From a virus: DNA of 55,080 bases. The notes beneath the pieces are model-generated. The model was not told the DNA's origin. It saw only the letters and a list, made by a program, of their open reading frames with translations, and made no database searches. Made by a program: the position numbers and the translations under genes. This document shows, one piece after another, positions 3,845-46,414 of the stretch (position 1 is its first letter; every line of letters begins with the position of its first letter). The DNA lies in the IMG/VR virus record IMGVR_UViG_3300042402_001424, positions 1 through 55,080 of that record; one strand, given 5' to 3'.

Positions 3845-4379
3845 TAACAACCTCTGATACTATTGTCAACACCTGTCCTTCTTTAGCAATAGTAGACAGT
3901 CTTTGCATAATAATATCTCTAACCTCTGGATGAGAAGAAGCAAGGTCTCTAAGTATTCCAACTAACACCTCTTGACGACGCTCAATCTCAACCATCTCTT
4001 CTGCAAGTTCTTTATTCTCAAGAAGTCCAGCTTTTTGAAGCATATCAATTCTTTTAGACTCAATATCCATTACAAGTTTAATTGCTGCAGTCTTTGCACT
4101 AAGGTTGTTTGTCATTGATGCTTCATCAATAACCTCATATGACTTTAGTATAAGCTTACTGTAGTGTGCATCTGCTCCAGCTAGTGCATCCTTAGCACGG
4201 GCACGGATTGCTGTATTATTAGATGTTTTTTCTTTCCATTCATCAATATATGCAACTACTCGTGTTCTAGGGATTGACAACTCTTTAGATATGGTGGTTG
4301 GATCACTACCCTTTAGATATTCGCCAACAACATCATTCATGATATCAAGATGCTTAACAAGATCTTCTTCAGTTGACAT
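3837..4379 (-). CDS. Probable terminase small subunit
   Basis: This 180-residue, mostly helical protein lies just upstream of the oxygenase and large terminase. Residues about 27-49 look like a helix-turn-helix (D-P-T-T-I-S-K-E-L then I-P-R-T-R-V-V-A-Y-I), followed by long charged helices that could oligomerise. This plan and position fit a small terminase subunit that recognises phage DNA and loads the large subunit. There is no diagnostic catalytic motif, so the call rests on architecture and context. The ATG overlaps the DUF3310 gene end, with AAGG upstream. Confidence 0.65.
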   Translation of the reverse strand: MSTEEDLVKHLDIMNDVVGEYLKGSDPTTISKELSIPRTRVVAYIDEWKEKTSNNTAIRARAKDALAGADAHYSKLILKSYEVIDEASMTNNLSAKTAAIKLVMDIESKRIDMLQKAGLLENKELAEEMVEIERRQEVLVGILRDLASSHPEVRDIIMQRLSTIAKEGQVLTIVSEVVNE

Positions 4380-16674: not shown

Positions 16675-19600
16675 TTATACTGGACCGCCACCTGATGATG
16701 CCTGGGATGGTACAGACCATGCACTTACACCAGCAGCATTTCTTGCTCTTACAAAATACCAGCTTGCTGCAGTACGTGGTGCGGAGAACTGAGTATTAGT
16801 TATAGCAGGCTGACCAGATGCTGGGTAATCTGGAGTTACACTTGATGATGGTGCAGGGCTTGAACTTGACTGATACCAGATTTCATAGCTAGTTGCTCCA
16901 GATACTGCGTTCCAACTAATAACAGTACTTCCTCCAGAAATTTGTGCAAATACACCTGTTGGAGATGATGGAGGTGATGCTGGGGCAAAGGTTGGGAAGA
17001 ATGGGAAGAAAGGAGGGAAGAACGGTGGGAAGAATGGAGGGAAGAATGGTGGGAAGAATGGAGGGAAGAACGGACCAAATGTTGGGAAGAACGGTGGGAA
17101 GAATGGAGGGAAAAATGGAGGAAAGAATGGAGAAGCAGCAGAAGTTGTAACATCTTGGACAACACCTGGTGTATAAACCCCTACCTGATTTATGCCATAT
17201 ACCAATACACTATATGTTATTCCAGGTGCAAGACCAGTCAGTGCTCCTGAAGTTGTAAGAGTTGTAGTTTTAGGATATCCAGAAACGTTAGCTAAAGTTA
17301 CTTTTCTATATATGTCAACATAGTATTGTGATGCATTTGTTGATGACCAGCTTGCTGTAAATCCAGAAGAATTAATGTTTGTAATAGTAATAGATACTGG
17401 ACCTGATAATGTAACAAATGATGTTGAAGAAGCCACCGTATCGCTAGCACTTGATATGACAGATAAAGATGGTGAATATGCTGTATTTGGACTTAAACTA
17501 GTAATTGATCTTGAAGTAGCTGTTGTTCCTGTATATGGAGTAGAGGGTGCTCCTGGAATTGATATAGAGTAAGTTGACTGGTTTGTAGATCCCCAAGAAA
17601 GTGTAGTAGATGTAGCAGTAGGAGTAGAATTTGTAAGTGCTGAAGATATTGTTGGAATAACCATGGATATTGATGAAGCTGTTCCAGAACCAGTTGAATT
17701 CTTTGCTCTTACAAAAAATGTATTACTACCAGATAGTCCATTTACGCTGTAACTTAAATTATTACCAATATCTGTATATCCAAAGTTATTAATTTGAACC
17801 TCATAAGAGGTTACTGTTCCAGCTGGTGCTGACCATGTAAATGTTTTTGATCCACCATTTCCAGCAGACTTTGCTAGATTAGGTGGTGCACCTGGTATTG
17901 CTGCTGATGTAGTAAATGATGCACCAGTAGTTGTTGCAGTATCTCCATTAGGTCCAATTATTGTAAGAGTTGGAGTATATGTGGTGCTTGGTGTTAATGC
18001 ATTATTTACAGCATAAGATGTACCAGAACCACTTCCAGTAAATGGGCTTCCTGTTGCCCCTGGAATTGATAAAGAGAATGAGCTTTGATTACTAGATGTC
18101 CAACTAAAGGCTGCACTAACAGAGGTTACTGGGCTTGCAGCTGGGAATGTAGAAATAACTGGCGGTGTAAATTGTCCCGTACTTACTGATGATCCTGACC
18201 CTGAAGCATTAAAAGCTCTTACCTGAAAAGTGTTTAATCCGTTTATAACATTTAGTGAAACAGAAGTTGTTAAGCCATTATTAATCCATCCAAGATTATT
18301 AAGTTGATATTCATATCCAGTTGGAGTTGCTCCACCTGATGGTGCACCCCACGTAAATGTTTTAGCTAAACCGTTGCCTGTACTCCTTTGAAGGTTTGTT
18401 GGAGCTCCAGGGACAGGTGTTGCAGTTGTAAATGTTTGAGATGCTGAAGCCGTATCTCCACTTGAAGATGTAACTGTAAGTGTTGCTGTATATGTTGTGC
18501 TTCCAACAAAAGCATTGTTTACTGCATAAAATGTTCCAGAATCATTTCCAGTAAATGGTGTTCCAGTAGCACCTGGAATAGACAAAGAGTAGCTTGACTG
18601 ATTTGTTGATGTCCAGTTAAATAAAGCTGATACTGAGGTTACTGGACTTGGTGCTGGAAATGATAGTGTTGGAACTGTAAACTGTCCTGTGCTTACTGAT
18701 GTTCCAGGACCTGCTGCCGATCTTGCTCTTACCAAAAATGTTAAATTCTGACCAGCAATGTTTGTAAAGGATACAGACCTTGTTAGACCTGTGCTAACCC
18801 AGCCAGCACCACTTAAGTTATACTCGTATGATGTAGGTGTTGTTCCAGATGATGGTGCACCCCATGTAAATGTTTTATTTGGTCCATTTCCAAGTGTTCT
18901 TTGAAGGTTGGTAGGTGGACCTGGCACTGGAGCAAGGGTTGTAAATGCAGTTCCAGTAACTGTATGTGTATCTCCAGTGGACGAAGCAATAGTTAATGTA
19001 GGAGTATATGTTGTACTTCCCTGCAAATCAGTTGATGGTGTTGTGGTTATTGTTTCTGTAGTTCCAGTGTAAGGTGATGTTGCTCCTGATGGAGATAATG
19101 CTAAAGACCAACTTGCTTGATCATTAGATGCCCAATCTATTTCTGCAGCAGTAGAGTTAAAAGTTAAAGCAAATGGTGCTGTTGTAATTCTAGGAACAGT
19201 AAATGATGGAGTTGATACAGCAGAACTTTCAGCGGTTGGTCCAACCGACCTTACAGAAAATACATTGTTTGATCCATATACAGTTGTTATTGAAACACTT
19301 GTAGATAAATTATTACTAATCCATCCTGAATCACCAAAAGGTGATGTGTATCTGTATTCATACCGTGTAAGTGTTCCTCCTCCTACTGGAGCTGTCCAAC
19401 TAAAAGTTTTTGATGTTCCATTACCAAGAGTTCTTTGAAGATTTGTTGGAGGGTTTGGAGGTGTTTGAATTGGACCAAAAACTGCAAATTGTTGTACCCC
19501 AATAGTTGTTCCAAAGTTATAATCTGTTCCACTATTTTTTTGTGTATCAACTGCATAATAATATGTTCCTGCTGGAATAGTTGATGGTGTAACTAAGGAT

Positions 19601-20382
19601 GATGTAACATTATAAACACTAGAAGTAACAGATGGAGCACTAGTTGTTATTCCTGATGTTACCTCTGTTCCGTAGGTTGCTATGTTATCTGCTGTGTATG
19701 TGTTAGATGTTGCTGTATACCATTTTACTGAGCTTCTTGTTGAGTCTGGCAGATATTCTGCAGTACCGTTCCAAGATGAAGAGTATTGTAATGTAGCTGG
19801 CAAAGATGTAACAATGCCAATAATTCTTGGATTTACTCCTGATGCTTTTAATGGATTATTTCTAATTAATGGAATTCTATATCCAAGACCAGTTTCTATA
19901 TTGTCTGAATTGTCTGTACCAATGGTTCCAGTAGATGTTGTCGCTTTTACTGTAAGCAAAAGCCATTTACCATCCCACGAAGATGTATTAAATACAATTT
20001 CTACATATGATGCAGGCATTGATGTTTCAGATATTAAAGTTGTTAGTGGACCAGTATCAATTAGAGCAGATGTTGAACCTTCAAGTTTATATCTATAAGA
20101 TGATATAGTTTCTCCATTACCGTCCCAAACTCCTCTTTGAGCATATTTTGTTGAACCAAATATAATAGGTTCAATTACATAGTTATTTCCTGCTTGATCT
20201 GAAGAAAAATATGGAGCAGTCGTTGTAAATGGTCCTAACTTTGGCCAAAAAACTGACCATAGTGTTGCAGTTTTTTTAATCCATGCTCTTGTAACTGGAA
20301 CCCATTCTGTTGGACTTTTCTTAACCCATATCTTTGTACCAGGCACCCATGTGCTAGCATCTTTTTTAGTCCACAACCCCAT
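16675..20382 (-). CDS. Large Fn3-repeat tail protein with Phe-Pro spacer
   Basis: The 1,235-residue product starts with three Trp-containing units of about 15 residues (T-W-V-P-G-T-K-I-W-V-K-K, E-W-V-P-V-T-R-A-W-I-K-K, then a decayed third). A beta-rich region follows, then four fibronectin type III-like units (each opening P-x-P-P-T-N-L-Q-R or similar) alternating with Ig-like units of the form S-Y-S-L-S-I-P-G-A. Two further Fn3-like domains flank a block of about 49 residues made of Phe-Phe-Pro-Pro repeats. It has no signal peptide and lies last in the tail module, so it is probably a surface-exposed tail or fibre protein that binds cell-surface glycans. It starts one base after the previous stop with a poor ribosome binding site. 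Confidence 0.8.
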   Translation of the reverse strand: MGLWTKKDASTWVPGTKIWVKKSPTEWVPVTRAWIKKTATLWSVFWPKLGPFTTTAPYFSSDQAGNNYVIEPIIFGSTKYAQRGVWDGNGETISSYRYKLEGSTSALIDTGPLTTLISETSMPASYVEIVFNTSSWDGKWLLLTVKATTSTGTIGTDNSDNIETGLGYRIPLIRNNPLKASGVNPRIIGIVTSLPATLQYSSSWNGTAEYLPDSTRSSVKWYTATSNTYTADNIATYGTEVTSGITTSAPSVTSSVYNVTSSLVTPSTIPAGTYYYAVDTQKNSGTDYNFGTTIGVQQFAVFGPIQTPPNPPTNLQRTLGNGTSKTFSWTAPVGGGTLTRYEYRYTSPFGDSGWISNNLSTSVSITTVYGSNNVFSVRSVGPTAESSAVSTPSFTVPRITTAPFALTFNSTAAEIDWASNDQASWSLALSPSGATSPYTGTTETITTTPSTDLQGSTTYTPTLTIASSTGDTHTVTGTAFTTLAPVPGPPTNLQRTLGNGPNKTFTWGAPSSGTTPTSYEYNLSGAGWVSTGLTRSVSFTNIAGQNLTFLVRARSAAGPGTSVSTGQFTVPTLSFPAPSPVTSVSALFNWTSTNQSSYSLSIPGATGTPFTGNDSGTFYAVNNAFVGSTTYTATLTVTSSSGDTASASQTFTTATPVPGAPTNLQRSTGNGLAKTFTWGAPSGGATPTGYEYQLNNLGWINNGLTTSVSLNVINGLNTFQVRAFNASGSGSSVSTGQFTPPVISTFPAASPVTSVSAAFSWTSSNQSSFSLSIPGATGSPFTGSGSGTSYAVNNALTPSTTYTPTLTIIGPNGDTATTTGASFTTSAAIPGAPPNLAKSAGNGGSKTFTWSAPAGTVTSYEVQINNFGYTDIGNNLSYSVNGLSGSNTFFVRAKNSTGSGTASSISMVIPTISSALTNSTPTATSTTLSWGSTNQSTYSISIPGAPSTPYTGTTATSRSITSLSPNTAYSPSLSVISSASDTVASSTSFVTLSGPVSITITNINSSGFTASWSSTNASQYYVDIYRKVTLANVSGYPKTTTLTTSGALTGLAPGITYSVLVYGINQVGVYTPGVVQDVTTSAASPFFPPFFPPFFPPFFPTFGPFFPPFFPPFFPPFFPPFFPPFFPFFPTFAPASPPSSPTGVFAQISGGSTVISWNAVSGATSYEIWYQSSSSPAPSSSVTPDYPASGQPAITNTQFSAPRTAASWYFVRARNAAGVSAWSVPSQASSGGGPV
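16990..17131 (-). repeat. Phe-Phe-Pro-Pro coding repeat
   Basis: The minus strand here encodes about eight F-F-P-P units, broken by F-F-P-T, F-G-P and F-F-P variants, between two Fn3-like domains. The DNA is a 12-base degenerate repeat that is purine-rich on the plus strand (G-G-G-A-A-G-A-A type). It is in frame with the surrounding protein and not an independent element. Confidence 0.85.
17800..19530 (-). repeat. Tandem Fn3/Ig-like coding repeats, about 520 bases per unit
   Basis: Four copies of the Fn3 opening motif fall near 17,880, 18,400, 18,910 and 19,445, a regular period of about 515-530 bases. Each copy carries a K-T-F-T-W (or K-T-F-S-W) strand followed by a Y-E-Y or Y-E-V strand. 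The repeat arose within the gene by duplication of an Fn3 plus Ig-like pair. Confidence 0.75.
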
Positions 20383-20383
20383 G

Positions 20384-23300
20384 TTAAAAGTCTACCAGTA
20401 AATCTCCAGCGTATCCAGTATCTGCGGTTGGCGTGCTAGTTATTCCAGACCCTCTATAATAAATTCCCATACCAAGTCTAGCTTCACCTGAACCTGGATC
20501 TATCACAAGCATTCTTGATCTTGGATATCTTCCAAGTGGAGGAATTCCTCTGTAATTGTTACCACTTCCAGCATCTGTCATATCTACATCCCTATGAACC
20601 TGTATTCCAGATATAACAACACCATATGTTGGATCCATCTTAATTTGTGATGGAGCATCATATGCTATTGCTTCTTGAGTTGATGTAGGTCTTGTTCCAG
20701 CATTAGCTACTCCAGATGCGTATACGATTCCTTCACTTGCCCTTAATATTATAGAGCTAGATGTAAGATTAATATAATTACTTGATGAAGATTGAAGCCT
20801 AATTCCTGATGAGTCAAATTGTTGGTATACGTTAGAAGATATTTGTGTTCTAATTCCACTTGCATTAAATCGTTGCCAAATATCTGCAACTGCTTGAATT
20901 GTAATATTGTCATTTCTAAATGTTTGATGAGTATCTGAATCTATTTGAATTTTTATTCCTTCTGAATTCATTTGATAAGCAATATCATCTGTTGCCTTCA
21001 TAATAATTCTTCTACTTGCTGGAGTATCTGAACCTTCAACATTTATAAACAAAAACTCATCTGCAGTTAATTTAATTACTCTATTAGTAAAAGATGCCCA
21101 TGCTCCATACTCTGTATCTGGAGAATAAATAGGCTGTCCTTTTGAACCAAGAGTAGTTCTTTTTGCAGTATAAAACAACATTGCTTTTTGTCCTGTTGGA
21201 ATTGCGGGGGTAAGTTTATCTCCAGTTGATGCTGTTGCAGCATCTAAAAGTAATCCTATATCTGGTCCTGCTGATAGCTGGAGTCCTGTAGTTGTTGCTG
21301 TTATAAATGGCGTACTTGCTCCATTAGTAAAGTAATCCCAAGTCCCAGTAAATAATCCAGCTCCAACTGTAGGATTTCCCCAATAGTCTTTATAGCTAGA
21401 TCCAGCAGAAATGTATGGACCATTAACTGGACCACTACTTGATATATCGTTTCCACTTGTCCATGGCGGTGTTGCACTTGGACTAGTTAAATATATGTTG
21501 TTGTTTCTTGGAACTAAGTATGCTGCTGGACCAAAAGTACCAGGTGTTGTACCTGCTGTTTGCAATGACATATAACCATGTTCACCGTCCATGGTCATTT
21601 TTCCAAGTGCACCTACGCTTGATACTGTTCCAGTAATCTTAGCATTTGATGCATATAGGTTTCCAGCTAGCGTTACTCTGAAAGCATGAGTTGTTCCTAT
21701 AGCACCAGAACTATCTGAACCAGCCCAAAACACATTTTCTGTTCCAACAGGCGTACCGTTAATGTTATCTGATGGTGTACTGCCAGTAGATATGTATGGT
21801 CCATTTATTCCAGCTGTGTACCCCGCAATATTTTGTGAACTTACTGATATATTTCCATCGGATGAGTTTAATGATATATTTGCAGCACCAGACCTTGATA
21901 TAGATGAAGCATTTACATTCCAGCCACCAATAACAGCGCTTCTTGTAGTAAATAAACCATCTTCTGATCTTATTGTTGTTATATCTCTTGTTGTTGATGA
22001 GTTAAAGGTTAGGCCATCTTTGTTTAATATAAAACCAGTTCCTGTAATCAATATAACTGATCCAACTGAATCAGTAACTAAAGCATTAGTTGTATTAGCA
22101 ACAGTAAACGTGTTTGATGTCCTTGCTGTTATTTTAAACTTGCCGTTGTACCCTGCTGGCAAAAGTCCAGAAATAAGGATATCATCTCCAACTACATATT
22201 CATGGTTAGCAGTTGTTCTATAGGTTGCTGCTGTTGCTGTATAGGTAACTTGATCTATAGAAAATACTGTTGGTGGCGTAATAAATGATTGAAGAGATCC
22301 TCCTCCAGCAATTGTAACGTTTCCACTAAATGTTCCTTTTCTTGCAGAAATATTTCCATCAATTACAAAATCAGAACCGCTCCAGTCAATATAGTTTGAA
22401 TTTTCTCCACCAACCCTTATTGAAGCTGATTGATCTGAATCAATGCGCCAGTAGTTATACGGATTAAACCTTAATCCACGTTGTGATGGACCAGAGTCTT
22501 GAATTCCATATCCAAATCTAAAAGCTGTGCTGTCTAAATCAGATGCATTTGCTTTTGCTTGAAAATATCCAGAAACATTTACTTTTTCACTTGCAATGTA
22601 TGGAGTTCCACCTATTTGAACATTATTTCCAGCAAAGTAATTTGAAGAAAGATTATTGTACTGATCATATGTTGCAACCGCAATCTCATATTCTGCCCCA
22701 AGGCTTAGTCCAGTTAACCTATAAGATGTTGCGTCTCCAATTGAGTCTGCAGTTGAATATTTTGAAACTGGATCTGTAACTGGTCTATACCTTATTCTGT
22801 ATCCACGTATATCTCCAGCTGTTATTGGGCTCCATGAAAGGTCAATATATCCATTAAATCCAACTACTCCTGTAGAATCTATTCCACCTGATGTCTCAAG
22901 TGATGTAACATCTGGTGGCCCCTCATTGTCTGCACCTACAGAACTTGTTGGTGTTACTTTTTGAGCAGCAGAAAAAGCTGTGTATATTCCAGCATCTGAA
23001 GAAAATCTTGCCTTTACCCACCTTTGATTTGTTCCATCAGGGATTATGTTTGCTGGGTTTAATGATCCAAAATAAGTTCTGATATATGTAACACCTGTTG
23101 GCTCTGTTAAATCTGTAGACTCATATTCAACTACATCAATAGCATCATAAACATCTTCAGCTGGAGTTGTGTATGAAACACTATAGCCACCTTGAATTGG
23201 TTTAACATCAATAACTGGTATTGGCAAACTTAAAACATATTCTGGAACTGTGGAAGCACAAATTGTATTACTTATGTTATTAAGTGGATCTGCGGTTAGT

Positions 23301-23863
23301 ACGCAGACTGCAGAAAAACTTGTTCTAAACACATTAAACATTGATGTAATTATAGACTTTGTTACTGTTATAGTTTGTCTAGTTTGTGTTGTGTTTGGTA
23401 TAAAGATATTAGACTGCGATCTTTTTGTTACTCCACCTGAAGTTAGTTGTACAATAAACTGTGACACAGAATCATTAACATCATTAGCATAATCCCAGTC
23501 AAAGCTTATAACTAAATCATTTCCAACCCAAGCTACAGAAACATTTGTTGGGTCAGTTGGAACAACAATTACTGGTCCAGAACCACCAGGATATGTCTTG
23601 GGAGGTTTATTTCCTCCACGTGGAATAGTTATGCTACCAAAATCTGGAGGCAGTGGCGCAGGTGGAGTTCTTCCAGCAGGGTTGTTTAGATTTCTACCGC
23701 CACCTATTAATGCTTTTCCATCAAGACCAACAATATCAATTTCAGCACCTTGTCGTGCTTTTGTCTGTCCTATTTTACCTGGCTTTAGTCGTGGATCATC
23801 AACACCAATTGGTACCGTTTGATTTTTACCAACGGACTTACCACTTGTATATTTTGACTTCAC
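20384..23863 (-). CDS. Tail-tip or fibre protein with Fn3 domains and beta-rich C-terminus
   Basis: The 1,159-residue product begins with a basic, Pro/Gly-rich leader (about 1-100), continues with several Fn3-like domains (around 100-420), then a segment typical of phage tail-tip fibres (D-G-N-I-S-A-R-K-G-T-F-S-G-N-V). A long beta-rich shaft follows. Near residues 960-1060 short repeats of the form G-I-x-x-Q-I and Q-x-F suggest a beta-helix. Its place after the hub-like and lectin-like genes fits a central fibre or tip protein. The GTG start at 23863 has AAGAGGCCAAC upstream, 13 bases after the previous stop. Confidence 0.8.
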   Translation of the reverse strand: MKSKYTSGKSVGKNQTVPIGVDDPRLKPGKIGQTKARQGAEIDIVGLDGKALIGGGRNLNNPAGRTPPAPLPPDFGSITIPRGGNKPPKTYPGGSGPVIVVPTDPTNVSVAWVGNDLVISFDWDYANDVNDSVSQFIVQLTSGGVTKRSQSNIFIPNTTQTRQTITVTKSIITSMFNVFRTSFSAVCVLTADPLNNISNTICASTVPEYVLSLPIPVIDVKPIQGGYSVSYTTPAEDVYDAIDVVEYESTDLTEPTGVTYIRTYFGSLNPANIIPDGTNQRWVKARFSSDAGIYTAFSAAQKVTPTSSVGADNEGPPDVTSLETSGGIDSTGVVGFNGYIDLSWSPITAGDIRGYRIRYRPVTDPVSKYSTADSIGDATSYRLTGLSLGAEYEIAVATYDQYNNLSSNYFAGNNVQIGGTPYIASEKVNVSGYFQAKANASDLDSTAFRFGYGIQDSGPSQRGLRFNPYNYWRIDSDQSASIRVGGENSNYIDWSGSDFVIDGNISARKGTFSGNVTIAGGGSLQSFITPPTVFSIDQVTYTATAATYRTTANHEYVVGDDILISGLLPAGYNGKFKITARTSNTFTVANTTNALVTDSVGSVILITGTGFILNKDGLTFNSSTTRDITTIRSEDGLFTTRSAVIGGWNVNASSISRSGAANISLNSSDGNISVSSQNIAGYTAGINGPYISTGSTPSDNINGTPVGTENVFWAGSDSSGAIGTTHAFRVTLAGNLYASNAKITGTVSSVGALGKMTMDGEHGYMSLQTAGTTPGTFGPAAYLVPRNNNIYLTSPSATPPWTSGNDISSSGPVNGPYISAGSSYKDYWGNPTVGAGLFTGTWDYFTNGASTPFITATTTGLQLSAGPDIGLLLDAATASTGDKLTPAIPTGQKAMLFYTAKRTTLGSKGQPIYSPDTEYGAWASFTNRVIKLTADEFLFINVEGSDTPASRRIIMKATDDIAYQMNSEGIKIQIDSDTHQTFRNDNITIQAVADIWQRFNASGIRTQISSNVYQQFDSSGIRLQSSSSNYINLTSSSIILRASEGIVYASGVANAGTRPTSTQEAIAYDAPSQIKMDPTYGVVISGIQVHRDVDMTDAGSGNNYRGIPPLGRYPRSRMLVIDPGSGEARLGMGIYYRGSGITSTPTADTGYAGDLLVDF

Positions 23864-23876
23864 GTTGGCCTCTTAA

Positions 23877-24404
23877 TTACTTTGGCCCTATTGCCATCCA
23901 GTTTACAAAAAAAGTTCCAGTTATTGCGATTCCATCACTGTTAGTGCTATTTGGATTAGTTACTCTGTATGTAAAACCCTCTTGTGTTACAGCAACAACA
24001 GTTACTACAATATGAGAATTCCACTTTACTTTAGTAGATTGTGTATTCTGTAGTGTTGCAGTAACTATTGGAGGTGCGTCAAATGATGATGCTCCCGATA
24101 CGTCGTCTGCAAAAACAACATCGCCATAGTATACCTGTGGCACATTGTTTGTAGCTGAATCAAAGGTAATTCCTGGTAACTCTGGATTAAACTTGTTCTT
24201 ACCAAAAACAATCTTTTGTGATCCTGGGTCATACTCATGAGATAAGTCAGACTCACCTTGCCAGTTTGTCTCGCCTGTACCCTGAATTCCAAAATTATTG
24301 GTAATTGCGGTGATGCTATCGCTATGCTGATTAACAACATTAATAACTTGCTGCCATGCAGCAACGTCTATTACGTTTGGATCTGATATTTTAATGTATG
24401 ACAT
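23877..24404 (-). CDS. Tail protein with H-type lectin-like C-terminal domain
   Basis: The 175-residue product has a short N-terminal helical segment (V-A-A-W-Q-Q-V-I-N-V-V-N-Q-H) and a beta domain at about 100-175. That domain resembles the H-type lectin fold: F-D-A-P-P-I-V-T-A-T-L near its start, V-V-T-V-V-A-V-T-Q-E-G-F-T-Y-R-V in the middle, and V-N-W-M-A-I-G at the end. Such domains bind sugars, so it may help attachment to the host surface. It is the first gene after the promoter at 24424-24432, with AGGAGATTATA before the ATG. The assignment is by pattern only. Confidence 0.65.
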   Translation of the reverse strand: MSYIKISDPNVIDVAAWQQVINVVNQHSDSITAITNNFGIQGTGETNWQGESDLSHEYDPGSQKIVFGKNKFNPELPGITFDSATNNVPQVYYGDVVFADDVSGASSFDAPPIVTATLQNTQSTKVKWNSHIVVTVVAVTQEGFTYRVTNPNSTNSDGIAITGTFFVNWMAIGPK

Positions 24405-24423
24405 TATAATCTCCTAGATTTCA

Positions 24424-24432
24424 ATTATACCA
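24424..24432 (-). promoter_or_regulatory. Extended -10 promoter TGGTATAAT
   Basis: TGGTATAAT is followed about 19 bases later by the ATG of the lectin-like gene, with AGGAG between. No -35 box is seen. It should drive the late tail genes from 24404 to 16675. Confidence 0.7.
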
Positions 24433-24443
24433 CAGCCATCCTT

Positions 24444-27400
24444 CTAATCTAATCTATTCATCTTGATAGATGTTGAAAGCCCAGAATCAAATGAGTGTGA
24501 TACTGACTGAACCATGTATCTTTGGCTGCTAATACCATTTAGTGAGTAGGTTAGTCCCACTATGTCTCCTACTTGAATTAGTGGGTTGCCGAAGATATTT
24601 AAAGTTACCGTTTTTGAAAATCCATCCAGACCCATCTCAACAATCTTGAGCATTTTATATGCTGCCTCTTTTGATTGAATCCACTCAGAGTCTAACTGAA
24701 GAACTTCTGACATGTTGGATTGGTCAACAACCTTTTCAATAATCTCTGGATCTGATGGAGCCACAACTTCATGTGTCCACAAGTTAAAGTTAATAGTGAA
24801 TTGATTAATCTCATCAGATTCTTTGCGTAAGAAAACCATATGAGGAGAATTGTTGGCTACTGCTATCTTTGCTCTAAACCCAGTATTGATAGGAGTTGAG
24901 TATGCCAAAGAGTATTCATCAATAATCTTCTTTTGATAATTTTTTTGATCTTCTGGTTCATTTCCTGGGAAGTAGTACCACATATATTCAATTGGCAAAA
25001 CATCAACAGACACTGCAGCTGGAGTTGTATATTGAACATCATACACATTGATTCCTGAAATTTCTGGTGTTGTCTGCATAATATAACTTGGAGACAAGTT
25101 GGCTAGGCTTTGGTTTTGTATTAAACCATTTAAAAATTCTCTGTCTTGGTAAAAATAACTTACACTTCTTTCCTTTAAAGGCTTCTTGGTTGCATGTATT
25201 TCTCTTAAAGATGATGCATGATTTGAATCAGAGGGTGGGAACTGTAGTGGTGGCTCTAAACCATCTATTGCATTAGGAGCTGAAGATGATACAAATCCAA
25301 ACTTTGTGTCAAGAACCATGTCATTTGCTACAGATGGTTTTCTTCTCATTCCAGTTAATGGATTAATGCTTGTTGGCTTATATCCTGTTGCACCTGTATC
25401 AGGGTCTGATGGGTCTCCAGGAACTTGCCAGCTACTAATCTCAACATTATTTAAAAAGACAGAAAGAATATTCTTGCTTATTTCTGCTGTTCCGTCTTCA
25501 CCGTCTGATCCGTCAGAAATATATCTAACAACCTTTAGGTTAAATGCGTTATCAGTTACATAGTCGTACTGATATTTATTATCAACCTTGGTTTTATTAA
25601 TTATTTTAGCAAAATTATTTGTTATGCTCTGACATTCTCCAGTTACATCAGACCAAGCAACTATATATCCATCAGTACGAATTGTAAGGGCATACCTATA
25701 TCTTGGTGGATCATATAAGGTAACGGTTCCTGGTACTAAAACATTGTACTTAATCAGTTCAACAAAGTATGCCCAGTCAGTTGATTCTTCATCCTTCATA
25801 TTAAAAAATAAACCTGCTGTTGTTACAGCTTGATCTGGCATGTCAAACTTAACAGAATATGTTTGATATCCTATATCAAGCGCATCTGTTGGATATATTA
25901 AGGTCTTATTAGTTCCAAATGTTTCAACTCTAATTTTATCAATGCTTGGCAAGCTATCAGTTATTTCACCATTACTTGTTTTACTGTTAATTATAGAAGC
26001 ATCATTAGATGCTGACACATCAGTGTAATAATAATTTATAGATTTTTCGGAAAGGCTTTTGCTTGCTAACGAATCTATTCTAGCATGTTCTGCTGGGGCA
26101 GTACCAAACATTCCACGTTTTACGTTTGTTATTTTTCCAGTTGGTGTTATTAAAATGTCTGATGTAGAGGCAGTAAATGCAGAACCTGACTTAGTTACTG
26201 GGTCAAGAGAGTGAGATGTAGTAAGTATTAAAAAGCTAGTTGCATCTGCATCAAGCACTGTTCCAGATAAATTAAACTGAGTTGGAACCATACCGCTAAT
26301 GTTAACCCTATCACCAACAGCAAAATCATTTTCTGCATAGTATGTGTTTATTACTCCATCTCCTTCTGCATCAGTAACTATTGCAGACTTTTGATTTAGA
26401 CCAACACCGTACTGCTTAACAAACCTATTGATTTCTGAAGATAGCTCAAGGTTATTTTTTACCGAAACCTTTTCTGAAAGATTGGAGCTCATGTTTGTAA
26501 TTTCGTACTCTTTGTAAACAAAAGAAACAATCTCATTTTCAATAGCTGCATAGCCCTCATTATTCATGTTGAACGTGTGAAAAATATCTAACAAGTCGTT
26601 ATTGTTGATCTGAAACACGTTTGTATCTTCTGACATGTCCGCATTAAGATAGTTAAATCCAACAGAATCCAAGGTCTGCTGCTGCCACACCACATCATTT
26701 GAAGTTGTATAAATAAATGATGGAGAGTTTTTAATTTCTAGGTTTGTAACATTTTGTAGCGATGGCGATTGTTTAATTTTAGGTGTCTGATATCTTAGGG
26801 ATATTTTTCCTGGCTTAGCGTTATTGGATATTGAAAATCCACCTTCTAAAATATTTGAGTCTGAGATACTGAGTGATGTTGTTGTTGAAGACAGGATATC
26901 CTGCAAACTTAAAAACTTCATAATTCCATACTCATCAATATATGCGCCTATTTGATATGCAACAAAGATTTGGCTTAAAGCATCTAAAACTGTTGTATCC
27001 TTTGAGTTACAGTAGTAATAGGATAGGTCTAATGGTGCTGACTTATTATTACATATTCTATATAAAGAGTCATAGTCATAGTCTGTAAAACCAGCAAGAT
27101 CTAATATGTTTGTTATTACTTCAAATACAGTCTTTAGACTTGCTACATAGTCTGGTACTGGTGTTGACTGCAAATACCGTGAAATATCAAAGCACTGAAC
27201 GCTTATGTCGCTAATATCATTTTCTTCCCAAGTATCTGAATAGAATATACCCCCTGGAATGTATGTGCCTGATGTTGTTACGCTGCCAGGTGATGCATAA
27301 TCAATAAGGTTAAAGTTAACGTAAAACTTAATATTTTTTCTTAAAATATTTGCTAATATACTAGATGCTTGATTGCTTTGACTAGAAAAAATGGGAACCA

Positions 27401-28793
27401 GTGTTGATCCACTCATTGCTGGTATACCTGACAGGCTAATTCTTGCATCATTTGTATTAATTGAAGAAATTGGAAGAGCAGTTCCTCCAGCATCTAAAGA
27501 CTTATCTATGCTTATATTTTGTACAAAATCTGAAAGGTCTATTTCAAGTCTTGGAGAAACTTCTATTAAGTGCATTCTTTTTAGATCTAAAGATATATTA
27601 GAGTTGGCATTTGATACTCCAGTTATTCCAGAAAGTGCAGAATTTGCTTGGCTTGATGTTTGAGTTACCGTAATCTTTTTTAAATTTGTTGAAATAGACA
27701 ATGCCCCAGCTGAATCAAACTTTGGCATAACTGACCATTTACTTGTACTCCAAGCAGATCCTGTCCAATATAAAACTACAACTCCGCTACTACCAACAAC
27801 TACTGACTGAGAACTTGTTGACTCAGTTCCATTGACAACAGCAGTTATAGAGATGCTCACCGTTGGAACAGTCATTAATGTATTAAACTTTAAAACAATT
27901 TTATTTGTAGGAATTATTTTTTCATATACAGCAGTGATGCTTCTTGAGTTTGAGTCCGAAACAAAGTATTTATATGGTGCGATGTCAGACGGTAGCGCTG
28001 TCTTTATGTTTGGTATTGTTGATGCTGCAAGAAAAAACTTTGGGTTTTGTAGTATACAACTTACTGGAGAATACTTGTTTCCAAAAAATCCTCCAGTTGA
28101 AGACTCAGTGCTTAAAAGTTTAGAAGCTATTCTTCTATAGTTAGATGGAAAAGAATACTTTGAGTCTCCAGACGAAACATATGATTCTCCTGGTCTGAAG
28201 TATGTAAATGCACTTTCGGTTGGAAATAAAGAATGATTGTAAAAATCAAACGCTGTTGTCTCATATACTTCTGGCAACGTATAGCGAACTGTTGCAGTGA
28301 GATCATCTGCATCAGCACCGCTAATTGTGTTGGCTGTTATTTTATAAACAAAAGAAGATATTGTATCTAGGCTTCCAGAAGATCCTATGTATGTAACAGC
28401 CTTTGTCCAGCCAAGTGAATCAACATCTATATTTTCTGTACCGTACTGAGTATCTGATCCTTTTGCAGATGCTGTAACCATAACTGGAGTTGCTCTGTTT
28501 GTTTTTACATAAGTTACTATTTTATATGCTTTTCCAGACAATCCAGAGAATGTATACGAAACTGATCCAGTACCGCCTGACATTGTAAATTTTTTGGTTG
28601 TAAAGTTTTCTTTTGATTCTGCTGTTGTGGCATTTGTATCAGTTCCAGATGTTGGAGATATCTTTGTGCCTGTTCCAGCAGTGGTAATATATGGCTGATT
28701 AAATAAGTTATGATTCCATTCAGCAGAAACTACTGGTACTAATGTTATTGAGTTTGATCCTGTAAATACTGATGAGAGTTCGCTACTGAGCAT
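24444..28793 (-). CDS. Large tail hub-like / baseplate protein
   Basis: The 1,449-residue product comes after the tape measure and distal-tail-like genes, where siphoviruses encode the tail hub. The C-terminal region (N-P-L-I-Q-V-G-D-I-V-G-L, then R-Y-M-V-Q-S-V-S-H) matches the usual ending of hub proteins, where an OB-like fold reads N-P-x-x-x-x-G-D. The N-terminal half is beta-rich with a galactose-binding-like character. No lytic transglycosylase or peptidase motif was found, so a tail lysin role is not claimed. Its ATG overlaps the previous stop as TAATG, with GGAGATAT just upstream. Confidence 0.75.
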   Translation of the reverse strand: MLSSELSSVFTGSNSITLVPVVSAEWNHNLFNQPYITTAGTGTKISPTSGTDTNATTAESKENFTTKKFTMSGGTGSVSYTFSGLSGKAYKIVTYVKTNRATPVMVTASAKGSDTQYGTENIDVDSLGWTKAVTYIGSSGSLDTISSFVYKITANTISGADADDLTATVRYTLPEVYETTAFDFYNHSLFPTESAFTYFRPGESYVSSGDSKYSFPSNYRRIASKLLSTESSTGGFFGNKYSPVSCILQNPKFFLAASTIPNIKTALPSDIAPYKYFVSDSNSRSITAVYEKIIPTNKIVLKFNTLMTVPTVSISITAVVNGTESTSSQSVVVGSSGVVVLYWTGSAWSTSKWSVMPKFDSAGALSISTNLKKITVTQTSSQANSALSGITGVSNANSNISLDLKRMHLIEVSPRLEIDLSDFVQNISIDKSLDAGGTALPISSINTNDARISLSGIPAMSGSTLVPIFSSQSNQASSILANILRKNIKFYVNFNLIDYASPGSVTTSGTYIPGGIFYSDTWEENDISDISVQCFDISRYLQSTPVPDYVASLKTVFEVITNILDLAGFTDYDYDSLYRICNNKSAPLDLSYYYCNSKDTTVLDALSQIFVAYQIGAYIDEYGIMKFLSLQDILSSTTTSLSISDSNILEGGFSISNNAKPGKISLRYQTPKIKQSPSLQNVTNLEIKNSPSFIYTTSNDVVWQQQTLDSVGFNYLNADMSEDTNVFQINNNDLLDIFHTFNMNNEGYAAIENEIVSFVYKEYEITNMSSNLSEKVSVKNNLELSSEINRFVKQYGVGLNQKSAIVTDAEGDGVINTYYAENDFAVGDRVNISGMVPTQFNLSGTVLDADATSFLILTTSHSLDPVTKSGSAFTASTSDILITPTGKITNVKRGMFGTAPAEHARIDSLASKSLSEKSINYYYTDVSASNDASIINSKTSNGEITDSLPSIDKIRVETFGTNKTLIYPTDALDIGYQTYSVKFDMPDQAVTTAGLFFNMKDEESTDWAYFVELIKYNVLVPGTVTLYDPPRYRYALTIRTDGYIVAWSDVTGECQSITNNFAKIINKTKVDNKYQYDYVTDNAFNLKVVRYISDGSDGEDGTAEISKNILSVFLNNVEISSWQVPGDPSDPDTGATGYKPTSINPLTGMRRKPSVANDMVLDTKFGFVSSSAPNAIDGLEPPLQFPPSDSNHASSLREIHATKKPLKERSVSYFYQDREFLNGLIQNQSLANLSPSYIMQTTPEISGINVYDVQYTTPAAVSVDVLPIEYMWYYFPGNEPEDQKNYQKKIIDEYSLAYSTPINTGFRAKIAVANNSPHMVFLRKESDEINQFTINFNLWTHEVVAPSDPEIIEKVVDQSNMSEVLQLDSEWIQSKEAAYKMLKIVEMGLDGFSKTVTLNIFGNPLIQVGDIVGLTYSLNGISSQRYMVQSVSHSFDSGLSTSIKMNRLD

Positions 28794-29299
28794 TATATCT
28801 CCGTAAACTCAATACTCATATCAACATAGTCTGAAAGGTTTGTTCTGTTAATTATTGTTTTAGAAAAATCAGTCATAAAAACAGTGTATCTTTTTGCTCC
28901 AGTTTCAGTTGATCCACTATTAAGCGCTGTTTGTGCTGTGGTAAATGTTCCAGATGGTAGCGATCCTGCAGAAGAATCTGTAGCAAGTTCTGACGCTACA
29001 ACCTTTATGTATATTGGTACTCCTGCATTTGATTGATAAAAAGATTCAAGCCAAGCAGCTGCATTAAAACCGTCAGCAGATTCAGAAGTTTTTGATGGTA
29101 CATATTTCCATGATACTGATATTTTTCTTTTCTTGGCAACAACATATTTTCTCATTGTTCCATTAGCCATGCGTGACTGAGACTCAATTAGTTCTGTTGA
29201 AATCTGAATAGGCTCTCTATTATGGTCTGTAATGCTTTGCCAGCTATTATCTGCACCAGTCAAAGAAACCTGTATTCCTGCACCAATTGTATATGCCAT
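28793..29299 (-). CDS. Minor tail protein, possible distal tail protein
   Basis: The 168-residue product is beta-rich and has a stretch typical of distal tail or tube-like proteins (M-R-K-Y-V-V-A-K-K-R-K-I-S-V-S-W). It follows the tape measure directly, joined by a TAATG stop/start overlap, and is joined the same way to the hub-like gene. A distal tail (Dit-like) role or a second tube-like subunit are both possible. No cysteine or catalytic pattern is visible. Confidence 0.65.
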   Translation of the reverse strand: MAYTIGAGIQVSLTGADNSWQSITDHNREPIQISTELIESQSRMANGTMRKYVVAKKRKISVSWKYVPSKTSESADGFNAAAWLESFYQSNAGVPIYIKVVASELATDSSAGSLPSGTFTTAQTALNSGSTETGAKRYTVFMTDFSKTIINRTNLSDYVDMSIEFTEI

Positions 29300-32200
29300 T
29301 AGATGCTAACCTTGTTAGACTTATTATTCTTGTTAATCTCAACCTTTAGTCGTCTCATAACTTCGTTTGCAACACCCTCTGGGCTTGCATTGTTACTTGT
29401 AATAGGCATATTTATATTATACACTGTACCGCCAGAATTTGTGCTAATGTCTGCAGTTCCATTATTTACCGCATTCATTGCAGCAACTCCATAGTCCTTA
29501 ACAGATGATGCCTTTACAACAAACTCTCCATTTGATACACGAATTGATCCTCCACCTGCATATCCAAGTGTTGCTCTAATGGAGTCAGATCGTCCTGTTC
29601 CAGGGCCCTTGATAAGGCCACCATTGGCCTTCTTAGGCAGTTTTGCCTTCTCAACGCTAGTTAGCTTAGACCCATCTTTAATCTCAGTTACTCTTGCTCT
29701 TAGAGCATCAATTTCAGCATCCTTTTTTCTTAACTCTGTCTCTTTATTAAATTCCATTTGTACATTTCTTGACTGTTGACCAAGCATTGCTGCCTCTATG
29801 TAGTTTCCAGAAATTTTAGCTTGTACTGCCTGACTAGCCAGATCTTGAAGCTTCATCTGTAAATCAATCTGTCTTTGAACCTCTTCGTTTGCTGCTTTTT
29901 GTGCATCACGCTTAGCTTCTAGTTTATTAATCTCTTTTTCTAGCAGCTTAATGTATTGTTCTTCAGCAGTTAGTTTATCTTTGCCCTTGCCTGTTCCATC
30001 ATCTGGGCTTTGATAATCTTTTACATTTGCTCCTCCACTGCTACTTGTCAGCTTTCCAAGTGCTTTTCTTGCTGCATCTCTTGCAGCATTAAAGCTCTTT
30101 ATAACCTTTTCAGCATTATAAACTCTTATAGCATCATCTGGACCTGCAACTGTTGTATTTTGAAGTATAAGCATGGCCTCAATTGCTCCAGATAGTGCAC
30201 CAGTTAATCCTAGGGCTTGGGCTTCCATAATAGCTAACTTGTTACCTGTTCCAGTTATTCCTTGTGCAGCTTTTTGCAAGTTCTTTGGAAGGACCTTCAT
30301 CATTTCATTTAATAAAATAGTCTGTTCTGGTTTTGGCATTGTTGCAATAGCAGAACTAATTCTTGCAAATCCCTGAGCAAATTGTTCTGCAGAGATTGTT
30401 CCATTTTCTAGCTGTGCTCTTAATCCATTTATAAATCCATTAGCAGCATCAGCAGCTAGCTTAATATTTTGCTTAGCTCCTTCTGCATACTGAGTAATAA
30501 CCCCATTAGCTCCTCTTTGAGAGCTAACAAATATCTGACTAATTCCAGCATCTATATCTTTAAGTATAGCTGTGAAATTTTTATCAAAATTTAAAATTCC
30601 TTTATCTGTTGATAGATCAATGTTAGCAAAATCAAACTTAAAGTCTGTTTTACCAGACTCTTCTTGCAAAGCCTTTATAATTAAATCTATTTGCTCTTTA
30701 GCAAATCCAGAACCACGAAGCTGAATAGCAATAGAGTCAAATACTAGCTTAGCTTGCTCACTAGTTCCCTTTCTTAATGACTCAATGTCTTTCTTAAAGT
30801 CTTTTTGGAATGCTTCATTTGTTTGAAGTGAATCAATTGCAGACTGCTCCTGTGAATTGGATCCCGTTGTCGTTGCATTATCTCTAGAAAGAAAATCAAT
30901 CTTAGTAGGAACTACGCCAAAGAAGTCTCCAAGTGTTTTTAACTTCTTTTCAGATACTGTTGCTGCGTCTCCAAGACCTTCAACAGCAACACGCTCACGC
31001 TCTTTTGCTGCATTAAGAAGTTTAACTATACCCACTGTTGCTGCTAACCCTAAAGCTACTAACTTAAATGGTCCTGGTAGAAGACCTAGCACCATCTTTA
31101 GTGCTTGGAATCCAAATACCGCTGGCATAATCTTTTGTGCAAGCTCTCCCATTTTGCCAGGTAAGAATGCTGCTGCTATCAATGCAGAGTTTCCTGCCAT
31201 GCCAACTGCTGCTCCACGTCCTGCAAACTTAGATCCAACATTTGCTGCTGCACCCTTAGCCTTTGACATTCTAGATTGTTTTTCAGGAGTTGTCATTGGA
31301 AGGAATACTGTTCCAGCTGGTGCATTTGGACCAATTCCAGCAGGACCCTGTGCTCTAGATGCTTTTCCAGATTTTGTTCCAGAAACAACAGCATTTCCAA
31401 GGACTTGTCCTGCTTTGTTAGCATCTTTCTTTTTAGACTTTACACCATCTGCTAAACTTTTTCCTGCATTTGCTCCTGCATCACTCATCTCTTTGGATGG
31501 AGATGAAATACGAAGAGCTGATCTTGCACCACTAATAAGTGCAGATGTAGCTGATTCAACTAAACTTTTTCCTTTAAGAGCAAAGTCTTTTGCTACCAAA
31601 GCTGATATCTGAACAGCGCCACGTCCACCGTAAGCTGCCTGTCTTTCTCCTGCTTTTTGATTTAAGAAGCTAACTTTATTTGAGCTTCTTGGTCTTCCAG
31701 TGGCAGTGTCTCTAGCAACTCCTCCGCCTGTTCCTGCAGGTGCAACAACAAACTCACCAGTTCCTGACTTTATCATAGCTGCTAAATATTTACGCTTTGC
31801 TTCTAATATTTGCTTTTCTGTTGTTATTCCAGACTGCTTAAGTTTTGCTAATTCAGTGTCTACTTTTGAAAGTCTTTCATCAGCAATCATGCCTGCTTGC
31901 TCTACAGTAATTCTCTTACCGTCAATTTTAATTCTAGCATCTGCCAGCAATCCTTCAGTAATTGCTTGCTTAGCATTTGCTCTCATATAGTCAATTCTTG
32001 ATTTAGTTGCGCCGTTTGAGTCTTGTAGTAAAGCTCTTGCAGTTGCACCTTCTTTAGCTAACTGCTCAAGTTCTACTGTATGCTTTTGTGTTGAAACTTT
32101 ATTTTCTCTCAAAGCTACAGCTGCTTGATCCCCTGCTTCGGCCAAAGCATCTAGTGTAAAAGGCTCTCCCTTAACACCAATTGCATTAAACATTGTATTT

Positions 32201-34632
32201 CTTGAACCTGTGCCAAGAGTTGTTGTACCACCAAAGGATCTTCCCCCAGCTAGTACAGCATTATCATCTTGTACTGCACCAACCAACTCTTCTTGGCTCT
32301 TTACTAAATCATATCCTTCGCCATCTACTTTATTTGTAAGCTTAAGTACTGTTGTTGAAAATCCCTTTAGTTCATCTCCAACTAATCTAATTGTTCTTGC
32401 AAGTTCGCTTGGTGCTGTAACATCAAAGTGAGATGCTACTGCAGATGTAGAGGTATTTGTAACAAACCTAGATCCCAAACCTTCTGCATATCCAGGTATA
32501 TTGTCAGCAATCATTCCATTAATAAGACCAGCGTACTTCTTGCTCATCTTGGTTGGAATTACTGTTTCTCCTGGCATTAGTAATGCTAGTTCTGAATCTT
32601 GATTTCCTGTACCGCCAACTACCGCAGGCTTACCCTTTGCTCTCTTCTTGATTGGGCCACGGCCTATAGGAATGGCTGTTGGCATAAAGTTTCTTTGCGC
32701 TGCAATTGCTCTAGTGTATGCTCCAGTTAGCTTGTCTACTGATGCTGCTTCCGCTGTAAATGTTTGTGCAAGATTTCTATGAATTTGATCAAGAGATGCT
32801 GCTACTGCTGCTGCATTTCTTTGTTCAAGAGTCATGTACTTAACTTCAGTGCCAAGAGTTGCAGATGACTGACCAGTTTTATTAAAGAGGGTCTTCATTG
32901 CTGTAAAGCCCTTAATTATATTTGCAACACCGTTTGCAAGCAAACCGAATGTCATTAATAAGATTGGTCCTAGACCAGCAATAGCTGTTGTTGCAATAAC
33001 TATTGCTTTCTTTGTTCCATCTCCAAGATTATTAAATCTATCTAATATGTTTGAAACAAATTCAGCAATTGGTGTTACTGCCTTCAAAAACTCTTCACCT
33101 ACTGGAACCAATGAAAGCTTTAGATTTTCAACAGCACCCTTAAATTTATTCATAGCCGATTCTGAAGTCATGCCTAATTCTTTTTCAGACAGAGATGCTA
33201 GTTCTTGAACAGATGCACCAGCTAGGTCAAGAACACGTGCTGCCTGTGTACCATCTTTGGTAACGTTGGCAAAAAGTGTAGATAAACGAGCAAACTGGAA
33301 CTTACCAAACATTTGCTCAATAACCTGAGCTCTATTTAGTGGATCAAGTTGATTTAAAGCTGTAGCAAACTCAACAACAGTTGCCTTAAGGTTTCCTCTA
33401 TTATCTTCTACAATCTTTTTTGCATTGATTCCAAAAGCTAAAAGCATATCGTTTGCTTTTCCAGTTGGATTAATTAAAGATCCAAGACCAGACTTTAATG
33501 CGTTAGCCCCTTCTGATGCATTAATTCCACCTTCTTTCATTGCAGTCATAAAGAATGCTAAATCTTTAAGATCTCCACCAAGTTGTTCAACTACTGGTGC
33601 AGCTTTTGGAATTGCAGTTGACATATCATCAAGAGATAGAACAGTCTGGTTTTCTACTGCGTTAAGAAAATCAATTGATTCTGCAAGCTTTTCAGAAGAC
33701 ATTGAGAAAGCATTTTGTAAAGCAATTGTTGTTTCAAGAGCTTTTTGACTATCTACTTGTCCAAGAATAGAAAGCTTAGTTGCTGCAGTTGTTTGTCTTT
33801 GAAGATCTAACCCCTGAAAACCTGCTGCTGCAGCTTCTGCTGCAAGTCCAACTGTTTGAGAAACAGCAACACCATACTTAGTAAACTGCTTTCCAAGTTC
33901 TGTTATTCCTTCTAGTGCTGCTTGGGTTTCTGATGCTGGTGTAAATAAATCTCCGTATACCTTCTTAAAACGAATAGCCTGAGTTTCCATATCCATAAAA
34001 GTTTTTGATGCTGCTGCACCAACACTTATTAATGGAAGTGTAAAACCAACCATAAGCTGACGACCAGCCCACTGTGTATTCTTACCAAAGTTAAGTAGGT
34101 TTGTAGAGCCTTGCTTTAAAAGCTGATTAAGTAATGCTTGCTTTTCAGAAGCAATCATTGTCTTTGTTGCAAGATCATTCATGTCAAGAGACAGAGGTCT
34201 TACAGCAATTGCCTTCATAGCACCGTTTGCATCACGGCCCATCTTGATGTATTGTGTCTGAAGGTCTTTTACGTTTTCTCTAGCAACCTTGTTTATTGTC
34301 TCAAATTCAGACTTAAACAATCTACCAAAAGTTTTTGATGCTCCACCAGCATACCTAAAGTATTCTCCAAGTGAGAACTTATTCTTCTCTAAAGAATTTG
34401 TGAACGACTCAGTGGTTGTTCTGATTGTTTTCATCTGGGCAGAGAACTTGCCCGTAGCATTAATTGAGTTAATTAAGCCTTGCTGCATTTGAGCAGTAAC
34501 TGCATTAGCTGCAGCTCCGCCCTTTGCCATTGATGTATGAAAGGCTGATATCTGTCTCTGTAAGTTTTTGATATTCGCCAGTGCTTCAGCAGTATCAATA
34601 CTTACCTTAATATTGGACTGAGCATCAGCCAT
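29299..34632 (-). CDS. Tape measure protein
   Basis: The 1,777-residue protein sets tail length and is the longest product in the window. The N-terminal third has the phage tape-measure core (around residues 360-470: M-K-E-G-G-I-N-A-S-E-G-A-N-A-L, then A-T-A-L-N-Q-L-D-P). Hydrophobic segments near 530-560 and 1,180-1,220 suit membrane insertion. Gly-rich modules ending in P-G-E-T-V-I-P-T and N-G-E-F-V-V-K occur in the middle and near the C-terminus. ATG is preceded by AGAGGTGTAATGA. It follows the two tail assembly chaperone genes, the standard order. By the usual 1.5 angstrom per residue rule the tail would be roughly 250 nm, an estimate only. Confidence 0.95.
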   Translation of the reverse strand: MADAQSNIKVSIDTAEALANIKNLQRQISAFHTSMAKGGAAANAVTAQMQQGLINSINATGKFSAQMKTIRTTTESFTNSLEKNKFSLGEYFRYAGGASKTFGRLFKSEFETINKVARENVKDLQTQYIKMGRDANGAMKAIAVRPLSLDMNDLATKTMIASEKQALLNQLLKQGSTNLLNFGKNTQWAGRQLMVGFTLPLISVGAAASKTFMDMETQAIRFKKVYGDLFTPASETQAALEGITELGKQFTKYGVAVSQTVGLAAEAAAAGFQGLDLQRQTTAATKLSILGQVDSQKALETTIALQNAFSMSSEKLAESIDFLNAVENQTVLSLDDMSTAIPKAAPVVEQLGGDLKDLAFFMTAMKEGGINASEGANALKSGLGSLINPTGKANDMLLAFGINAKKIVEDNRGNLKATVVEFATALNQLDPLNRAQVIEQMFGKFQFARLSTLFANVTKDGTQAARVLDLAGASVQELASLSEKELGMTSESAMNKFKGAVENLKLSLVPVGEEFLKAVTPIAEFVSNILDRFNNLGDGTKKAIVIATTAIAGLGPILLMTFGLLANGVANIIKGFTAMKTLFNKTGQSSATLGTEVKYMTLEQRNAAAVAASLDQIHRNLAQTFTAEAASVDKLTGAYTRAIAAQRNFMPTAIPIGRGPIKKRAKGKPAVVGGTGNQDSELALLMPGETVIPTKMSKKYAGLINGMIADNIPGYAEGLGSRFVTNTSTSAVASHFDVTAPSELARTIRLVGDELKGFSTTVLKLTNKVDGEGYDLVKSQEELVGAVQDDNAVLAGGRSFGGTTTLGTGSRNTMFNAIGVKGEPFTLDALAEAGDQAAVALRENKVSTQKHTVELEQLAKEGATARALLQDSNGATKSRIDYMRANAKQAITEGLLADARIKIDGKRITVEQAGMIADERLSKVDTELAKLKQSGITTEKQILEAKRKYLAAMIKSGTGEFVVAPAGTGGGVARDTATGRPRSSNKVSFLNQKAGERQAAYGGRGAVQISALVAKDFALKGKSLVESATSALISGARSALRISSPSKEMSDAGANAGKSLADGVKSKKKDANKAGQVLGNAVVSGTKSGKASRAQGPAGIGPNAPAGTVFLPMTTPEKQSRMSKAKGAAANVGSKFAGRGAAVGMAGNSALIAAAFLPGKMGELAQKIMPAVFGFQALKMVLGLLPGPFKLVALGLAATVGIVKLLNAAKERERVAVEGLGDAATVSEKKLKTLGDFFGVVPTKIDFLSRDNATTTGSNSQEQSAIDSLQTNEAFQKDFKKDIESLRKGTSEQAKLVFDSIAIQLRGSGFAKEQIDLIIKALQEESGKTDFKFDFANIDLSTDKGILNFDKNFTAILKDIDAGISQIFVSSQRGANGVITQYAEGAKQNIKLAADAANGFINGLRAQLENGTISAEQFAQGFARISSAIATMPKPEQTILLNEMMKVLPKNLQKAAQGITGTGNKLAIMEAQALGLTGALSGAIEAMLILQNTTVAGPDDAIRVYNAEKVIKSFNAARDAARKALGKLTSSSGGANVKDYQSPDDGTGKGKDKLTAEEQYIKLLEKEINKLEAKRDAQKAANEEVQRQIDLQMKLQDLASQAVQAKISGNYIEAAMLGQQSRNVQMEFNKETELRKKDAEIDALRARVTEIKDGSKLTSVEKAKLPKKANGGLIKGPGTGRSDSIRATLGYAGGGSIRVSNGEFVVKASSVKDYGVAAMNAVNNGTADISTNSGGTVYNINMPITSNNASPEGVANEVMRRLKVEINKNNKSNKVSI

Positions 34633-46405: not shown

Positions 46406-46414
46406 TGCTATACT
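46406..46414 (+). promoter_or_regulatory. Plus-strand extended -10-like box TGCTATACT
   Basis: The plus strand reads TGCTATACT, overlapping the fibre stop codon, directly after the plus-strand hairpin. It would transcribe antisense into the 3' end of the fibre gene. No plus-strand gene is evident downstream, so it may be fortuitous. Confidence 0.35.

Follow-up and report, generated by a model that had tools for sequence, protein, structure and literature searches.

The question raised by this locus is what a long stretch made almost entirely of Phe and Pro does in a phage tail protein. The window, the whole stretch of DNA that was analysed, comprises 55,080 nucleotides (positions 1 to 55,080 of IMG/VR virus record IMGVR_UViG_3300042402_001424). 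The features of its tail region are listed here.

16675..20382, minus strand: Fn3-repeat tail protein gene, 1235 amino acids (translation; Pfam fn3 E 2e-13; tail-module position)
16978..17130, minus strand: Phe/Pro block, residues 1085-1135 (FFPP units, one FFP unit, TFGP/TFAP variants)
17170..17400, minus strand: Fn3 domain N-terminal of the block, residues 995-1071 (best Pfam stretch; AlphaFold2 beta domain)
16717..16950, minus strand: predicted Fn3-like beta domain C-terminal of the block, residues ~1145-1222 (AlphaFold2 model)
20384..34632, minus strand: tail module upstream of the block gene (Pfam, gene order)
20384-23863, minus strand: Fn3 minor tail protein
24444-28793, minus strand: minor tail protein
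29299-34632, minus strand: tape measure

The 1235-amino-acid protein has both the Fn3 domains and the place in the tail module that mark an Fn3-domain phage tail protein; its gene (16675-20382, minus strand) shares its strand with the tape-measure and minor tail genes and comes after them. Translated from this minus-strand open reading frame, the block reads in context ...SAAS-PFFPPFFPPFFPPFFPTFGPFFPPFFPPFFPPFFPPFFPPFFPFFPTFAPA-SPPSS... and consists of 51 residues, of which 24 are Phe, 22 are Pro and one is Gly. At its peak, 45 of 49 residues are Phe or Pro, whereas 5000 shuffles of the whole protein never exceeded 21. The dense FFPP run that a preliminary description had placed at 16990-17131 is the core of the block at 16978-17130. 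Tandem Repeats Finder detects a 12/24-bp DNA repeat here. Pairwise comparison of the eight FFPP units gives 46 nucleotide differences, all at the third codon position and none at the first or second, which argues for selection on the protein sequence. In the AlphaFold2 model a beta domain lies on either side of the block, and the block itself is without secondary structure (low confidence, mean pLDDT 59). Together with the Pfam fn3 match upstream, this bears out the earlier view that the block is extended and lies between Fn3-type domains. The earlier interpretation as a whole, by which the sticky block may insert into or lie along a hydrophobic host layer, or bind a partner of its own, is partly supported.

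Relatives of the protein are encoded at nine loci. One independent contig, L136, is identical across the whole gene and carries the identical block in the contig interior. Seven further homologues span the site, and every one of them retains the block, with differing repeat numbers, although two of the seven (L134 and L144) align poorly outside the block. It ends three to eight residues from the C-terminus in four of these and is followed by a further C-terminal domain in three. L029 and L038 are identical over the 300 nt upstream, yet their blocks comprise 100 and 85 amino acids, respectively. The expectation that repeat number varies between related contigs was correct, both for this pair and for the seven homologues. 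The two outcomes named beforehand as fatal, an assembly artefact and absence from relatives, are excluded, the first by the identical block in L136 and the second by its presence in every homologue that spans the site.

A search for FFPP repeats in phages and hosts, as had been proposed, shows them to be abundant in viruses. A contig scan with the pattern (FFPP)3 detected them in at least 120 viral contigs, versus three genuine contigs in the prokaryote set, where a longer, four-unit pattern was used and gave six stretches among 84,980 species. The three genuine matches (L127, L129 and L132) code for FFPP proteins of PASTA or PASTA-like type, and their contigs are assigned to two metagenome-assembled genomes; the others (L128, L130 and L131) were set aside as apparent out-of-frame or chance matches. 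This fibre architecture, present in hundreds of uncultured contigs, was not detected in 50,697 GenBank phage records, where a BLAST search with three FFPP proteins as queries and the repeat itself masked found no relatives. A DNA search for the repeat gave weak scattered matches only, and a full-text literature search found no paper containing the string FFPPFFPP.

The unit is patterned. Across 118 distinct blocks its first position is Phe 1383 times, Tyr 226, His 21, Ser 12 and Trp 9, the second is almost always Phe, and the unit ends in one or two Pro; a few V-A counts in the unit table derive from an unrelated TPVAP repeat. A first position that admits Tyr and sometimes His, Ser or Trp, next to a near-invariant Phe, indicates a pattern rather than mere stickiness. 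The window block belongs to a widespread phage tail-fibre module of [F/Y/H/W]-F-P-(P) repeats. Ig-like domains (Fn3, PASTA and others) serve as anchors; the repeats lie either between them or on their distal side, and often reach or approach the C-terminus. Among the anchors are a pair of Fn3-like domains (~200 residues) and PASTA (L127, Pfam E 8.5e-10). After the block the protein may simply end, or it continues with a short Cys-rich tail, an Ig-like domain, a Peptidase_S74 chaperone (L036, E 5e-11) or a Hint-like domain. The last of these, a Hint/intein-like C-terminal domain, is seen in about a dozen fibres (L006, L033, L046, L070, L089 and L117 among them), with weak Pfam matches (E 0.003). 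Self-cleavage by such a domain could leave the block exposed as the tip of the mature fibre.

The repeat has its own codon style. Phe codons in the window block are TTC 20 times and TTT 4 times, versus 3 and 40 in the remaining gene, and 83 and 326 over 14 other window genes. CCG makes up 3 of the 22 Pro codons of the block, versus 5 of 417 in the same 14 genes. In the blocks of L001-L120, TTC accounts for ~87% of Phe codons whatever the genome GC, versus ~43% elsewhere in those genes. The TTC bias could reflect a repeat that spreads as a DNA module, or translational selection. Avoidance of slippage was considered and rejected as its cause: the frequency of TTTTTT pairs is close to the product of the codon frequencies, and single-Phe units are TTC-rich as well.

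Of major interest is what lies next to the FFPP genes, a feature absent from the preliminary description. Among 76 of their neighbours, 29 matched PF13640 (2OG-FeII_Oxy_3). These 2OG genes are situated downstream of the fibre gene and on its strand, often in ordered arrays in which Lys-type enzymes precede a cluster of Arg-type enzymes. In the first kb downstream, 73 matches to the 2OG profile were found in 90 loci, against one in 73 in the first kb upstream; further downstream the density is 0.4-0.6 per kb over several kb. These counts come from a profile built without three doubtful seeds (one PhyH-like; two non-2OG, one of these a sulfotransferase) and with an HxD..H filter; including the seeds led to the same result.

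A comparison within one anchor type was possible. A search with an aligned set of two-Fn3 anchors gave at least 576 related stretches, of which the best 80 were read; behind this shared anchor the distal repeat is of FFPP, FGFTPFGF or NFYNYAN type. Among complete genes with no less than 2.5 kb of downstream sequence, 60 of 60 FFPP-type fibres have a 2OG gene in the 3 kb that follow, versus 1 of 14 of the other two types (Fisher p 1e-13, a value that overstates independence, since on the anchor tree the repeat type changes only about three times, once on well-supported branches, so that a small number of independent events is involved). FFPP repeats on other, unrelated anchors also have 2OG genes nearby: PASTA in 13 of 16 cases, a Cys-repeat anchor in 2 of 2, and L058 and L073 in one of one each. 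Upstream of the two large anchor groups a 2OG gene was found in 0 of 36 and 0 of 17. Contigs with FFPP repeats hold 158 PF13640 genes in 1.62 Mb, versus 13 in 0.62 Mb for contigs with non-FFPP homologues; per record the numbers are 1-13, versus 0-2 in contigs with other repeat types.

In sequence, the FFPP-linked 2OG enzymes resemble peptidyl-prolyl hydroxylases, and proline hydroxylation is their putative activity. In the PF13640 alignment the iron triad HxD...H is kept in nearly all aligned rows (first His 97%, Asp 98%, distal His near 100%), and the 2OG-binding position is Lys or Arg. The 2OG profile matches Bacillus anthracis prolyl 4-hydroxylase, prolyl 3-hydroxylase, LH3 lysyl hydroxylase, PBCV-1 prolyl hydroxylase, PHD2 and an algal P4H. 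The window phage has an enzyme of this kind.

3317..3850, minus strand: prolyl-hydroxylase-like 2OG-Fe(II) oxygenase P0002, the proposed modifying enzyme (PF13640 E 1e-17)

P0002 carries HTD...H...K, and the nearest solved sequence is that of B. anthracis prolyl 4-hydroxylase. P0002 is the one enzyme that was modelled; its AlphaFold2 model (mean pLDDT 88) has the predicted fold of a peptidyl-prolyl hydroxylase, the double-stranded beta-helix of PHD2 and P4H. It superposes on PHD2 with Z 19.5 (2.5 A over 169 residues), on Pseudomonas putida P4H with Z 18.8 and on the PBCV-1 viral prolyl hydroxylase with Z 17.8.

One virus encodes both a 2OG enzyme and a proline-repeat structural protein in the window (3317-3850 and 16675-20382) and in G001 and G002, its two nearest larger relatives, whose tail proteins are 78-81% identical to that of the window. 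Both of these carry a second FFPP fibre, which has a 2OG gene directly behind it and then an array; the window contig may end before this region is reached. The P0002 gene itself lies 13 kb from the window block, between terminase-like genes (assigned by reading, the large one being without a Pfam match), and a 2OG gene has the same position in G003 and G008. This distance counts against hydroxylation, and it makes the link with the enzyme weaker for the window block than for the fibres with adjacent genes. The link between enzyme and repeat is genomic; the presence of hydroxyproline, a binding partner and any effect on the window block are inferences.

The explanation that we favour, and hold to be rather likely, is that of an extended fibre segment whose prolines are hydroxylated by the phage's own 2OG enzymes. 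The FFPP repeats would form this segment close to the tip of the tail protein and would be the substrate of prolyl-hydroxylase-type 2OG/Fe(II) oxygenases, which would modify some choice of the prolines before or during assembly. Hydroxylation stiffens and polarises segments, as in collagen and extensin; here it would make the fibre segment stiffer and more polar. The segment may have a role in adsorption. In a few phages the hydroxylated segment would possibly be a glycan acceptor. The candidate enzyme of the window phage would be the product of 3317-3850. Phages that have an FFPP fibre and a row of 2OG genes probably hydroxylate their own tail fibres. In view of the association, the prolines may carry hydroxyl groups, in which case the block would be less greasy than one would judge from its residues.

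Several observations count against hydroxylation. An adjacent 2OG gene was found in neither of the two evaluable P0001-type long Fn3 proteins, nor was one found near the FFPP genes L011, L019, L062, L064 and L074. No 2OG gene at all is present in G009, G011 and G012, which are FFPP contigs 30-38 kb long. FGFTP repeats also hold proline, yet are without these enzymes. The 2OG enzymes could, moreover, act on glycans or on another protein of the same cassette.

An unmodified hydrophobic adhesin, in which the exposed Phe-rich segment adheres to the host surface through a hydrophobic layer, lipid or glycan there and the 2OG genes serve other substrates of the cassette, is an unlikely alternative. 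It agrees with the fact that aromatic-rich distal repeats are a shared feature, FFPP, FGFTPFGF and NFYNYAN being swapped behind the same anchor, that the first unit position is nearly always Phe, Tyr, His or Trp, and that the block is often C-terminal and differs in length among close relatives. It leaves unexplained, however, why prolyl-hydroxylase-like genes go with Pro-Pro repeats and not with the equally aromatic FGFTP and NFYN repeats. An adhesive role of the aromatic residues is compatible with modification.

It is also improbable that the block is a passive, unmodified Pro-rich spacer between tip and shaft, with the 2OG association a matter of shared ancestry of a mobile cassette. The block does join Ig-like domains in the window and three relatives, lacks secondary structure in the AlphaFold2 model and belongs to a repeat that has changed few times independently on the anchor tree; but a spacer needs no strict Phe-Phe pattern, whereas the second Phe hardly ever varies, many proteins carry the block at their C-terminus, and the 2OG association recurs across unrelated anchor domains. 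An assembly artefact or out-of-frame low-complexity DNA has practically no probability: many scanned contigs do start or stop within such blocks, since assemblers break at repeats, but this reading is already refuted by the open frame with its third-position differences, by the interior copy in L136, by retention in all homologues and by hundreds of independent examples.

Hydroxylation of the FFPP fibres can be placed in a broader scheme, which is offered tentatively, at somewhat less than an even chance. Fibre-maturation cassettes would be modular, one anchor being combined with interchangeable aromatic-rich distal repeats, each with its own downstream enzymes: FFPP with ordered arrays of prolyl-hydroxylase-like genes and sometimes a gene of a GlcNAc-transferase family, and FGFTP or NFYN with a family termed A8. 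PF11397 glycosyltransferase genes do lie beside the FFPP fibres of L169 and L202; this family includes the Skp1 hydroxyproline GlcNAc-transferase, and its presence would fit glycosylation of hydroxyproline. If such cassettes exist, tail-fibre hydroxylation would be among the main functions of the 2OG oxygenases that abound in aquatic phages.

A conserved ~218-amino-acid family, A8, with an invariant HxH, His and Arg, follows FGFTPFGF and NFYNYAN fibres (L158:4020-4664, L163:5309-5977, L181:5357-6019 and others). It has no match in Pfam and none among PDB sequences, so that its label as another type of oxygenase, which it may be, is based solely on the conserved His/Arg pattern. Scattered through the 2OG arrays downstream of FFPP fibres are genes for DUF6065 (PF19541), which make up 21 of 63 non-2OG neighbours (e.g., L148:6941-7657).

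Likenesses to known systems are partial. The PBCV-1 chlorella virus prolyl 4-hydroxylase (vCPH) is also virus-encoded, and its fold matches P0002 (Foldseek E 9e-11); PBCV-1, however, is a eukaryotic virus, whereas the present cases are bacteriophages with FFPP tail-fibre repeats and up to 13 PF13640 genes per record. Collagen-like phage tail fibres share a repetitive proline-containing segment of variable repeat number but have Gly-X-Y, whereas the FFPP block is Phe-rich and without Gly-X-Y triplets. To our knowledge, a dedicated prolyl hydroxylase is not the usual partner of such fibres. Cyanophage 2OG-Fe(II) oxygenases are related PF13640-type enzymes (~24-35% identical), and in cyanophage ACG-2014h two 2OG genes come after a gp12-like short tail fibre gene; no FFPP-type repeats were seen in the four GenBank cyanophage 2OG regions inspected. 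For hydroxyproline in viral proteins of PBCV-1, Eriksson et al. (1999) are cited in PMC9301287. Prolyl 4-hydroxylase (P4HA) is reported to be abundant among viral genes of the Baltic Sea, its use by viruses being termed cryptic and collagen suggested (PMC9301287); here, FFPP tail fibres are the proposed substrate. A candidate substrate is thereby placed in the same gene cluster as viral prolyl 4-hydroxylase-like genes, and this points to post-translational protein hydroxylation as a step in phage fibre maturation.

The major capsid protein of the window is 43-45% identical to those of Streptomyces phages, a likeness that suggests an actinobacterium as host. The hosts of other FFPP phages may differ. 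Two further genes of the window, both on the minus strand, deserve mention. That at 127-1533 encodes a 468-amino-acid protein that begins with a signal-peptide-like sequence and also has an Ig-like region and a coil rich in Ala and Lys; it resembles a phage-carried secreted or surface protein, and similar genes occupy this position in G003 and G008. The gene at 46408-51642 encodes a repetitive fibre protein of 1744 amino acids with a Major tropism determinant N-terminal domain (PF18454).
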